From assembly GCA_029862185.1 (NCBI GenBank), contig JAOTXX010000027.1, positions 1 through 47,841 on the forward strand: 47,841 nucleotides of DNA, in the 5' to 3' direction. Below are positions 6,480 through 9,191 of the stretch, one piece after another (positions within the stretch are counted from its first letter, which is position 1; every line of letters begins with the position of its first letter). The stretch is from Myxococcales bacterium (GTDB lineage: Bacteria; Myxococcota_A; Polyangia; Polyangiales; Houyiibacteriaceae). Both the position numbers and the translations under genes were made by a program. The notes beneath the pieces are model-generated. The model made no database searches. It saw only the letters and a list, made by a program, of their open reading frames with translations, and was not told the origin of the DNA.

Positions 6480-7295
6480 GTGGTAGCTCGCATAGACTCT
6501 GCATCCGGGGACGAGGATCAGGGGCAAACGGAAAACCCGATTGCCCGGATGGTCCGAGAAGCGATCGAGAGCGTCGCGACCCCAGAGGTGCAGGTGCAGA
6601 TCCTCCATCGCGCCCTGCACATGGCACGGGAGCATGAAATCCCGGGCGCGGGGGATCGCCTGCACCGCTTCGTGGATAAGCATCTCCGAAGCGCGATGGA
6701 GTTCTATCTTGGCAACGCCGCCACGGACGCCGTGATGCAGAACCTCGAGCCCATGCTGATGTTCGCCGAAACGATCGGCTCTCAGCCGCCACAGGACGAC
6801 GCTCGCGAGGACGCGACGCGGAAGCTTGGCCGCGAACGGGCGAGCTCGGGCGTCAGCAGGAAGCACAGCGGTCATCCATCGGAGCCCAGCACCTCGAAGT
6901 ACCCCACGATTCAACCCTTGGGCTCCGCGCTACCGATGGTCTTCGTCGCGACCCGCGACCGTGCGCGATACGACGAGATCGCCAAGAAGGTCGGATCCGC
7001 CGCGGCGGTACAGCAAATCGAGGACGTCGTCGCGTTTCTCGACAACGTCAAGGCCACCGCATCCTTGAGCCCACTGCTCGTCATCGATTGCGTCGAGGCT
7101 TCCGTCCAACCCGCCACGATCGCGACGTTGGCGCACGAGCTGCCCAAAAACTCCGCGGTCTTGGTTTGGGGCGCCACCGAAAAGCACCGCGCTCTGACCG
7201 ACCTAGTGACGGGCGATCGAGGATGGTTTCGCTGCGGTGTCGAGGCCAAGCCTGGCGATGTCGCTGCCCTGATCCAAATGCTCCTCGGCAAATAG
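6480..7295 (+). CDS. Unknown protein with helical N-terminal domain and receiver-like C-terminal domain
   Basis: A 271-residue soluble protein. The N-terminal 100 residues are helical and acidic (IARMVREAIESVATPEVQVQ and so on), a Ser/Pro/Arg-rich linker follows, and the last 125 residues resemble a degenerate response-regulator receiver: LPMVFVATRDRARYDEI as strand 1/helix 1, SPLLVIDCVEAS as strand 3, and NSAVLVWGATEK as strand 4. The Asp in VIDCVEAS could stand where the phosphoacceptor sits, but the acidic pocket and the conserved Lys are not clear, so it may be a pseudo-receiver. The GTG at 6480 is placed by the promoter spacing. The 3' end overlaps the convergent mepA-like gene by 93 bp. 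Confidence 0.65.
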   Translation: MVARIDSASGDEDQGQTENPIARMVREAIESVATPEVQVQILHRALHMAREHEIPGAGDRLHRFVDKHLRSAMEFYLGNAATDAVMQNLEPMLMFAETIGSQPPQDDAREDATRKLGRERASSGVSRKHSGHPSEPSTSKYPTIQPLGSALPMVFVATRDRARYDEIAKKVGSAAAVQQIEDVVAFLDNVKATASLSPLLVIDCVEASVQPATIATLAHELPKNSAVLVWGATEKHRALTDLVTGDRGWFRCGVEAKPGDVAALIQMLLGK

Positions 7296-8087
7296 CCAAC
7301 GAAGGATGCCGGCATCGTTGGCGGCGACACTTGCGCGACTGTCCTCCTTGCGCGCGGGGTCGCTCAGCCACGGCCAGTGGGGCGCTTGTTCCCTGCAACC
7401 GAGATGCCGTTCCTTGGGCCCACAGCCCACGCGGAGATGAAAGTGATCGTCGTGTGGCTCGCCGCGCGATGGCTGATGAAGGACCCAGGTGGCTCGAACC
7501 AGCGCTTGAGGCGAACGCTCGTGGCGCGCGGCGTAGCGCAGAAGCCGAACCTTGAGCTCATTCGAGCAGAAGAGCCATTTCACGCGGGCTTCGTCGTCCA
7601 TCAGCAAGCTGCGCACCAGGTGCCAATTGCGCGCTTCGTCGAAGCGGACCGACTCGCCGGGCAGGATCGCGAATCCAAACCGGTCGAACCGGAGCCAGGG
7701 ATCGGGACTCGTGGTGAGCCCGCCGACGTCTCTCGCGAAAAACAAAAGGTCGGCGTCCCGGCCAGTGCGATGGGTTCGATGCCTCTCGTGCGAGCCGCCC
7801 AGGTGGCTCGACAGATCGCCAACCCGAAGCGGGGGTCCAGTTGGAAATGCGTGGGCTACTTCACGGGCCGCGCGCTCGATCGCACCAACGAGAGTCTCCG
7901 TGCCGTATTGCGTTCGGTCCTGGGGCCGCAGCCGCCGATAGCCCTCGCCGCGGTCGGCGAGGCCAACGGCATCACGAAGGTAGCCGTAATCGGCAGTGCC
8001 CACCGAGATCGTCTGGCCTGCCGGCACCGGCTCGGTCACGCAGGAACAGATCACGATGATTCCCGCAAACGGAAAAACCCTCAACAT
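7203..8087 (-). CDS. mepA: MepA-type penicillin-insensitive murein endopeptidase, probable lipoprotein
   Basis: A zinc peptidase of the LAS (MepA/VanY/lysostaphin) group that cuts peptide cross-links in peptidoglycan. The signature is the His/Asp cluster HRTHRTGRDADLLF and the late metal motif DDHFHLRVGC. The N-terminus FPFAGIIVICSC looks like a lipoprotein signal with Cys near residue 16, so it is placed in the periplasm or outer membrane; the lipobox is not canonical. It has 294 residues, close to the family size. The C-terminal 90 bp overlap the convergent gene ending at 7295. The ATG at 8087 is preceded nine bases upstream by a TATCAT box. Confidence 0.82.
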   Translation of the reverse strand: MLRVFPFAGIIVICSCVTEPVPAGQTISVGTADYGYLRDAVGLADRGEGYRRLRPQDRTQYGTETLVGAIERAAREVAHAFPTGPPLRVGDLSSHLGGSHERHRTHRTGRDADLLFFARDVGGLTTSPDPWLRFDRFGFAILPGESVRFDEARNWHLVRSLLMDDEARVKWLFCSNELKVRLLRYAARHERSPQALVRATWVLHQPSRGEPHDDHFHLRVGCGPKERHLGCREQAPHWPWLSDPARKEDSRASVAANDAGILRWLFAEEHLDQGSDIARLGLDTAAKPSSIARH

Positions 8088-8096
8088 TTCAAATGC

Positions 8097-8102
8097 ATGA
8101 TA
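8097..8102 (-). promoter_or_regulatory. -10 box for mepA-like gene, leaderless arrangement
   Basis: Read on the minus strand the hexamer is TATCAT, nine bases upstream of the ATG at 8087. No good -35 is seen at 16-18 bp. It lies back to back with the promoter of the TPR/zincin gene in the 69-bp divergent gap. Confidence 0.38.
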
Positions 8103-8116
8103 GCCTACGGTTCCGC

Positions 8117-8144
8117 TTGACGTCCCAAACCCGCCACGTAAGTT
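8117..8144 (+). promoter_or_regulatory. Sigma70-like promoter for TPR/zincin gene
   Basis: -35 TTGACG (8117-8122), 16-bp spacer, -10 TAAGTT (8139-8144). The predicted transcription start falls 2-6 bases before the GTG 8154 / ATG 8157 pair, so the mRNA has almost no leader. Confidence 0.48.
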
Positions 8145-8156
8145 TCGGAATTAGTG

Positions 8157-9191
8157 ATGTCCGAGCCAATCGAAGGATTTATGGACCGCCTCAGCGCGCA
8201 CCTCGACCGCGGCTGGGAGTTGGTCACGCAGGGTGACTTGAGCGGCGCGATGGCGTCGGCCGAGCAGACGCTCGAGCTCGACGGCGAATCGCCGGATGCG
8301 CACAACCTCATCGGCTACATCCATGCCGCCAATGGCAATCTGGACATGGCGCTCGAGCATTACCGCCAGGCCATCGACCTCGATGAGCACTACCTCGAGG
8401 CGATGCTCAACGCTGCCGAGCTTCTAATTCACCCGTTGGGAAGCCTGGCGGAGGCGATTCGCGTGCTCGACCAGGCGCTCGAAAGCTGTCAAACGGCGGA
8501 CGACATCGCGGATGCGTCCGTACTCAAGGTCGACGCGCTGCTCCAGCAGGGCGACCGAGCTGCCGCTGCCGAGCTTCTTCTCGGGCTGCCGGAAGGTCCC
8601 TACGAAAACGAACAGCTCGACTTCCTGATCGGGCGCGCGCACTTCGAGCTCGACCAGATCGATGCCGCGGCCGTTTTGATCGAACGCGCAGCATCCCGCC
8701 CGGACGCATCCCCCGATGTACTCTACTATGTTGGACTCTTGCGCGACCGGCAGGAGCGTCATGGCGAAGCCGCACTGGCCTTCCTCAAGACGCGGCATCT
8801 CGACGGACTGCTTCCGAGCCCTCCTTGGTCGCCGACGCATGGGCGCTTCGAGAAGATCGTGCAGTCCGCGCTGCGGGCGCTCCCCGAGGGACTCACGCAG
8901 CGCCTGGAAGGCAATCTAATCATGGTGAGCGACCTGCCCGGCCTGGAGGTCGTGGCCGAGGGCGTCGACCCACGAACCCCACTGCTGCTGGACGAGATGG
9001 CCACCACCACGGGAGGCGAAGAGCAGCGACGCCTCTTCGTTTACCAGCGAAACATCGAGCGGCTGATTCGACACCCGCTCGGGCTCCAAGAAGACGTGCA
9101 GGAGATTCTTCATCGCGAGCTCGAAGCCCATTTCAACAGGCCAAAGGACGCGCCCGCGGGCACGAAGTTCTCGTCCAAGCGTCAGGGCTGA
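8157..9191 (+). CDS. TPR protein fused to a degenerate zincin (DUF1025-like) domain
   Basis: 344 residues from the ATG at 8157 (a GTG lies three bases earlier). Residues about 10-220 contain TPR units (for example AHNLIGYIHAANGNLDMALE, LYYVGLLRDRQERHGEAALA). The last 110 residues match the small zincin/DUF1025 metallopeptidase family: RFEKIVQSALRALPEGL, then RRLFVYQRNIERL, then the helix that should carry HExxHH. Here that helix reads HRELEAHF (319-326). Aligned to the family's HEIGHHF, the two zinc histidines are Arg320 and Ala324, and only the Glu and the following His remain. It is probably not a peptidase but a TPR-based binding protein with a pseudo-enzyme domain. The stop overlaps the convergent gene by 10 bp. 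Confidence 0.78.
   Translation: MSEPIEGFMDRLSAHLDRGWELVTQGDLSGAMASAEQTLELDGESPDAHNLIGYIHAANGNLDMALEHYRQAIDLDEHYLEAMLNAAELLIHPLGSLAEAIRVLDQALESCQTADDIADASVLKVDALLQQGDRAAAAELLLGLPEGPYENEQLDFLIGRAHFELDQIDAAAVLIERAASRPDASPDVLYYVGLLRDRQERHGEAALAFLKTRHLDGLLPSPPWSPTHGRFEKIVQSALRALPEGLTQRLEGNLIMVSDLPGLEVVAEGVDPRTPLLLDEMATTTGGEEQRRLFVYQRNIERLIRHPLGLQEDVQEILHRELEAHFNRPKDAPAGTKFSSKRQG

Follow-up and report, generated by a model that had tools for sequence, protein, structure and literature searches.

What can a peptidase domain still do once every ligand of its metal has gone? The question is raised by a gene in the window, by which we mean the whole 47,841-nucleotide stretch of DNA analysed here. It encodes what a sequence-only reading had described as a TPR protein fused to a zincin domain without its zinc histidines, and we refer to it here as the TPR-pseudo-mini-zincin. 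The open reading frame starts with an ATG at 8157, with a GTG at 8154, and its translation contains EILHRELEAHFNRPKD, including R320, E321 and A324. Its features, and those of the region upstream, are listed in Table 1.

Table 1. Coordinates of the TPR-pseudo-mini-zincin gene, its parts and the upstream region, in window positions.
Feature	Position	Strand	Basis or remark
TPR-pseudo-mini-zincin CDS	8157..9191	+	344 aa plus stop
TPR solenoid, about residues 9–218	8181..8810	+	Pfam TPR families, AF2 helices, PDB searches
Mini-zincin (DUF1025-like) domain without metal ligands, about residues 243–331	8883..9149	+	Pfam, AF2, Foldseek, profiles
Former active-site helix, residues 307–326	9075..9134	+	AF2 secondary structure; profile alignment to 3E11
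Codons 320–324, RELEA replacing HExxH	9114..9128	+	R320/A324 replace the zinc histidines; Glu kept as E321
Codon 330 (Lys), third zinc-ligand position	9144..9146	+	E or D in 54/55 HExxH relatives
Peptidase_M74 (MepA-like murein endopeptidase), divergent neighbour	7203..8087	-	Pfam PF03411, E 2.5e-16
Divergent intergenic region, 69 bp, between the M74 and TPR-zincin genes	8088..8156	.	

Tandem TPR motifs exceed the Pfam cut-off in the window protein (TPR_16, TPR_2, TPR_1, TPR_8 and others), and TPR structures rank top when it is searched against the PDB. In the full-length AF2 model (mean pLDDT 90.5, pTM 0.84), helices span residues 3–218 with pLDDT mostly above 90, and residues 332–344 have pLDDT below 50. 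The former active-site helix, which reads ...EILHRELEAHF, ends a small α/β domain comprising residues 243–331. With the AF2 model of this domain alone, Foldseek places the DUF1025 structures 3E11 (Acel_2062) first and 2EJQ second, which bears out the structural kinship that the sequence-only reading had proposed; 3E11 is the only PDB match with an E-value below 1e-3 (1.6e-4). Superposition on 3E11 gives a VIA Z-score of 7.0, middling by the tool's own note, with an r.m.s.d. of 4.2 and 86 aligned positions, and other zincin-like structures (YbeY, selecase and others) reach Z-scores of 5.4 or less. The chain of a listed toxin is also weakly matched, with a Z-score of 4.0.

Sequence comparison leads to the same family. 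The PF06262 match of the window protein (residues 280–327) is below threshold, at 16.6 bits where the cut-off is 22.4, with an E-value of 0.053 for the whole protein and 0.008 for the domain alone; of 60 homologous domains, 35 match PF06262 at E ≤ 0.1, the lowest E-value being 1.7e-7. As phmmer with the domain sequence alone returned nothing meaningful from the PDB, a profile of the 60 homologous domains was run against all PDB sequences, and 3E11 came top (E 0.024). Comparison of the pseudo profile with a profile of five HExxH relatives gives an hhalign probability of 99.2 and an E-value of 2.4e-19. The domain is thus a homologue of PF06262 (DUF1025, Zincin_1) by descent and fold, and the window protein lies outside the catalytic Asp-zincins.

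The domain profile aligns the helix to 3E11 without a gap, setting R320, E321 and A324 on His95, Glu96 and His99, so that the placing of Arg and Ala at the two zinc positions, first read from the translation, is borne out. The loss extends further than had been noted: of the HExxHxxGxxD zinc site, N327 replaces the turn glycine (G in 55/55 HExxH relatives) and K330 replaces the third ligand, and only the active-site Glu position is retained. The domain had been called well kept apart from the histidines; this holds for the fold and for D271-P272-R273, N299, R302 and E321, and less so for the overall sequence. A one-residue register shift restoring two histidines is ruled out, as H319 and H325 stand six residues apart (i, i+6) rather than four, and neither is conserved: the position of H319 is N, S, Q or R elsewhere in the same genus. 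Assembly error or decay is excluded by the R-E-A pattern in 14 of 14 distinct rows of the genus, the window's own included and two short rows (L071, L110) left out, and by dN/dS values of 0.018–0.087 in seven within-genus comparisons. The TPR part and the domain give similar values, which argues that the domain is used. A viral origin was also considered and rejected; a scan of viral contigs gave 15 pattern matches, none of which is a relative by tblastn.

Homologues of the window protein occur in 54 of the 57 nearest genomes (E ≤ 1e-5), some of the matches being at the level of the TPRs only. The substitutions prove common within Polyangiales: among the best 80 of 154 confirmed loci, an uneven sample for that reason, none has both histidines and all 80 have Glu at the catalytic position. 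Within the order, the sequence-only reading thereby withstands the check set for it, that an intact HExxH in orthologues would refute it. In the same best 80 of 154, the first-His position is Arg in 61 and His in 4, and the second is Ala in 55 and His in 7. One His is thus kept in a few rows, and some of these members may bind metal weakly. A further 82 distinct sequences, left after removal of matches with shared tails, include ten with HExxH, all outside Polyangiales by kinship labels; the Glu can be seen in 79 and is missing from one (L073), and two are unaligned there. It was also not found in L293, and both L073 and L293 may be problems of alignment or quality.

At the C-terminus, 44 of 80 homologues finish exactly in Leu-Asn and 54 of 80 in Asn, behind a linker that varies in other respects. 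Such an ending resembles a conserved tag or recognition motif; in the window protein the last residues are KRQG instead. A simple hydropathy scan found no strongly hydrophobic N-terminus or evident signal peptide in the homologues, and the TPR-pseudo-mini-zincin is probably cytoplasmic.

Across the class, TPR-zincins are present in 168 of 192 genomes (E ≤ 1e-20). The 60 class loci outside Polyangiales comprise 46 with HExxH, 13 that have lost it and one without a usable motif (L278); HExxH in these more distant relatives points to an old loss rather than an original lack. We computed a tree without the helix columns from 113 rows, namely chosen earlier rows together with non-Polyangiales class loci whose matched part exceeds 240 aa. 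In this tree, which comes from a short search without bootstrap, a single branch with SH-aLRT 99.4 separates 56 ligand-less from 55 HExxH rows, so the loss is ancient. Two ligand-less rows on long branches (L093 and L311) fall outside the main clade and are set aside from this statement. Most simply, a single loss of the metal ligands took place in the ancestor from which Polyangiales and the rest of the clade descend. Three HExxH zincins from Polyangiales genomes (L102, L103 and L105) group with the HExxH rows and are therefore paralogues or gained copies. Further TPR-zincins lacking the histidines are seen outside Polyangiales (L259, L262, L263, L265–L269, L273, L274, L276 and L293); nearly all keep the Glu, and some have very divergent helix ends. 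Many Polyangiales genomes also carry a second zincin-like group with an HE(L/V)EHH-type motif in open frames of about 345–714 aa (L112, L115–L119, L122, L124, L129–L131, L136 and L142). It matches the domain profile weakly and the full query not at all, and as a different, weakly related group it was left out of the trees.

Within the lost clade the Glu is held in 55 of 56 rows, and at positions 319, 320, 324 and 325 the commonest residue reaches at most 27 of 56. D271, P272, R273, N299 and R302 are conserved in the lost clade and the HExxH relatives alike; the conservation of E264 and Y296 is much stronger in the lost clade.

YkuD enzymes form 3-3 cross-links, and both M74 and YkuD enzymes act in the envelope. 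MepA cleaves the D-alanyl-meso-diaminopimelyl bond, according to the part of PMC6403190 consulted. Genes for such peptidoglycan cross-link enzymes are frequent neighbours of the TPR-pseudo-mini-zincin, a feature absent from the sequence-only reading, as was the identity of the Glu as the retained active-site position. One lies directly upstream, no more than 500 bp away, in 48 of the best 80 of 154 Polyangiales loci, M74 in 22 and YkuD in 26. In these 80, the M74 neighbour is found in 13 of 14 loci of the window's own genus and in 9 of the 66 others, and is divergent in 21 cases and co-directional in one. The YkuD L,D-transpeptidase genes of the 26 loci are co-directional with the TPR-zincin gene, and the gap between the two often measures 40–190 bp; a YkuD neighbour is found in 30 of the 80, these 26 included, by a stricter search and in 31 by clustering. 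Neither gene lies within 500 bp in 32 of the 80. Among smaller loci elsewhere, an M74 neighbour is also found in families f1, f3, f5, f8 and f10. As M74 genes number 1–12 per genome (96 genomes) and YkuD genes 9–13 (six f12 genomes, in all six of which one lies just upstream of the TPR-zincin), adjacency by chance is unlikely; shared descent could account for it. In the window, the M74 product has a probable lipoprotein-type N-terminus, judged by eye.

With neighbour models built from Polyangiales loci and less sensitive outside the order, no M74 or YkuD neighbour was found at the HExxH loci examined. The same models gave none at 20 loci (L232–L251), made up of relatives from other orders, both HExxH and ligand-less, and of four HExxH copies from Polyangiales, and none at the 60 non-Polyangiales class loci, the 13 ligand-less ones included. 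Other genes surround the window locus. An RNA pseudouridine synthase gene (PF00849; 9182–10243, minus strand) is convergent with the TPR-zincin gene and overlaps its 3' end by 10 bases, and is in turn overlapped by a gene for a PPDK/PEP-utilising enzyme. The conserved gene at 6480–7295 (plus strand) has no assigned function and matches nothing in Pfam at 1e-5; 13 of 69 loci carry it, including one outside the genus (28% identity).

Taking these observations together, we consider it somewhat probable that the protein is an ancient TPR adaptor without catalysis, which binds partners in what was once the active-site cleft and serves peptidoglycan cross-link remodelling. By the computations above, a TPR-fused mini-zincin metallopeptidase of Myxococcota lost all its metal ligands, and the lost clade has since kept the fold, E321 and a polar frame (D271-P272-R273, N299 and R302), not the metal positions. 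With no metal ligand left, zincin chemistry is not available, and the zinc-free protein would be unable to hydrolyse peptides in zincin fashion. The groove of the TPRs and the cleft, now free of metal, may together form a cytoplasmic binding platform, in which E321 would hold the cleft together or touch the ligand. Binding was one of the two roles suggested earlier, and it is argued for by a conserved zinc-less fold under strong purifying selection and joined to TPRs. In Polyangiales the platform would serve the remodelling of peptidoglycan cross-links, a wall role proposed because the gene so often adjoins those of MepA-like endopeptidases or YkuD L,D-transpeptidases.

The TPR part may instead do the work, with the ligand-less domain a leftover structural cap or dimerisation unit and E321 a buried structural residue. 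The TPR region is constrained like the domain by dN/dS, and D271, P272, R273 and N299, being equally conserved in HExxH relatives, may be structural; yet retention of the Glu in 55 of 56 rows, against the drift of the residues around it in the helix, is seemingly more than a plain cap needs, and the stronger conservation of E264 and Y296 in the lost clade also speaks against this account, which we regard as unlikely. That the protein acts on an active DUF1025 peptidase as a decoy, the other role suggested earlier, or as a dominant-negative partner is highly improbable. The window genome (100% complete, 3.45% contamination) has no second PF06262 match at E ≤ 10 and hence no active sister to mimic there, and although some Polyangiales genomes also hold an HExxH zincin (for example, G021 and G284), such copies are scattered in the order, where the pseudo form is nearly universal. 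We find it scarcely credible that the protein is still a metallo-enzyme with a displaced site made, for example, of D331, H325 or other acidic residues: H319, H325 and the tail are not conserved beyond the genus and residues 332–344 are modelled at pLDDT below 50, even if H325 is kept within the genus and D331 is one residue from the third-ligand position.

A more serious contender, to which we give an appreciable chance short of even, concerns the neighbours. Their linkage may have no functional meaning and simply reflect inherited gene order, with the protein playing an unrelated cytoplasmic role: the 32 of 80 loci and the 13 loci outside the order lack them, M74 adjacency could be a single ancestral arrangement, and some loci show synteny with RluA-like and PEP-synthase-like genes as well. 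Against this, the upstream position is taken in different families by two enzymes that are not homologous but belong to one cell-wall layer, and the adaptor is probably tied to wall cross-link remodelling, as gene order and an analogy with NlpI suggest. Direct contact is not obvious between a probably cytoplasmic protein and the envelope enzymes M74 and YkuD. A bolder reading, which we think improbable, is that the metal-free site around the retained Glu binds, in the cytoplasm, some peptide from the turnover of the cell wall, such as a recycled stem peptide, and that the TPRs report it to the control of the neighbouring enzymes that make (YkuD) and break (MepA-like) cross-links; the protein would then be a cytoplasmic sensor of cross-link status, or an adaptor, made from a dead peptidase.

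Among known systems, the closest are the PF06262 mini-zincins (Acel_2062, 3E11; TTHA0227, 2EJQ), with which the window domain shares its fold, the ungapped alignment of the active-site helix and the apparent lack of a signal peptide, and from which it differs in having lost the three ligands and the turn glycine, only the Glu being left. The DUF1025 Zincin_1 mini-zincins are called M94 in the part of PMC3890501 consulted, which reports that 17 family members also carry TPRs and that the motif is incomplete in 80 of more than 500 homologues, in many of them through replacement of the third ligand; in that same part we found no description of a TPR clade without the histidines. Nor did we find a paper on this clade or its gene neighbours in the open-licence PMC literature. 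DUF1025–TPR fusions and homologues without the full motif are thus already known, and the linkage to peptidoglycan-enzyme genes is new. Among CLCA and ADAM proteins, which belong to other families than the window protein, inactive zincins with a substituted HExxH likewise conserve the fold and have lost catalytic residues in a non-random manner; the excerpt of PMC3650047 that treats them judges metalloprotease function in DUF1025 most likely conserved. With a clade free of metal ligands, many relatives with intact sites and one selected active-site residue, the present group would be a clean and old case of a peptidase turned adaptor, in which comparison of both groups makes testable what a pseudopeptidase keeps and why.

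For the wall link, the comparison is with NlpI of E. coli, a TPR protein that is not known to have a zincin domain. NlpI is an outer-membrane lipoprotein and an adaptor of peptidoglycan endopeptidases (PMC7049810, in the portion consulted), whereas the window protein is probably cytoplasmic and its possible link to the wall is drawn from gene order only. The likeness is one of working, an analogy and not homology; should the wall link be true, Polyangiales would have, in the TPR-pseudo-mini-zincin, a so far unstudied regulator of how the cell wall is cross-linked.
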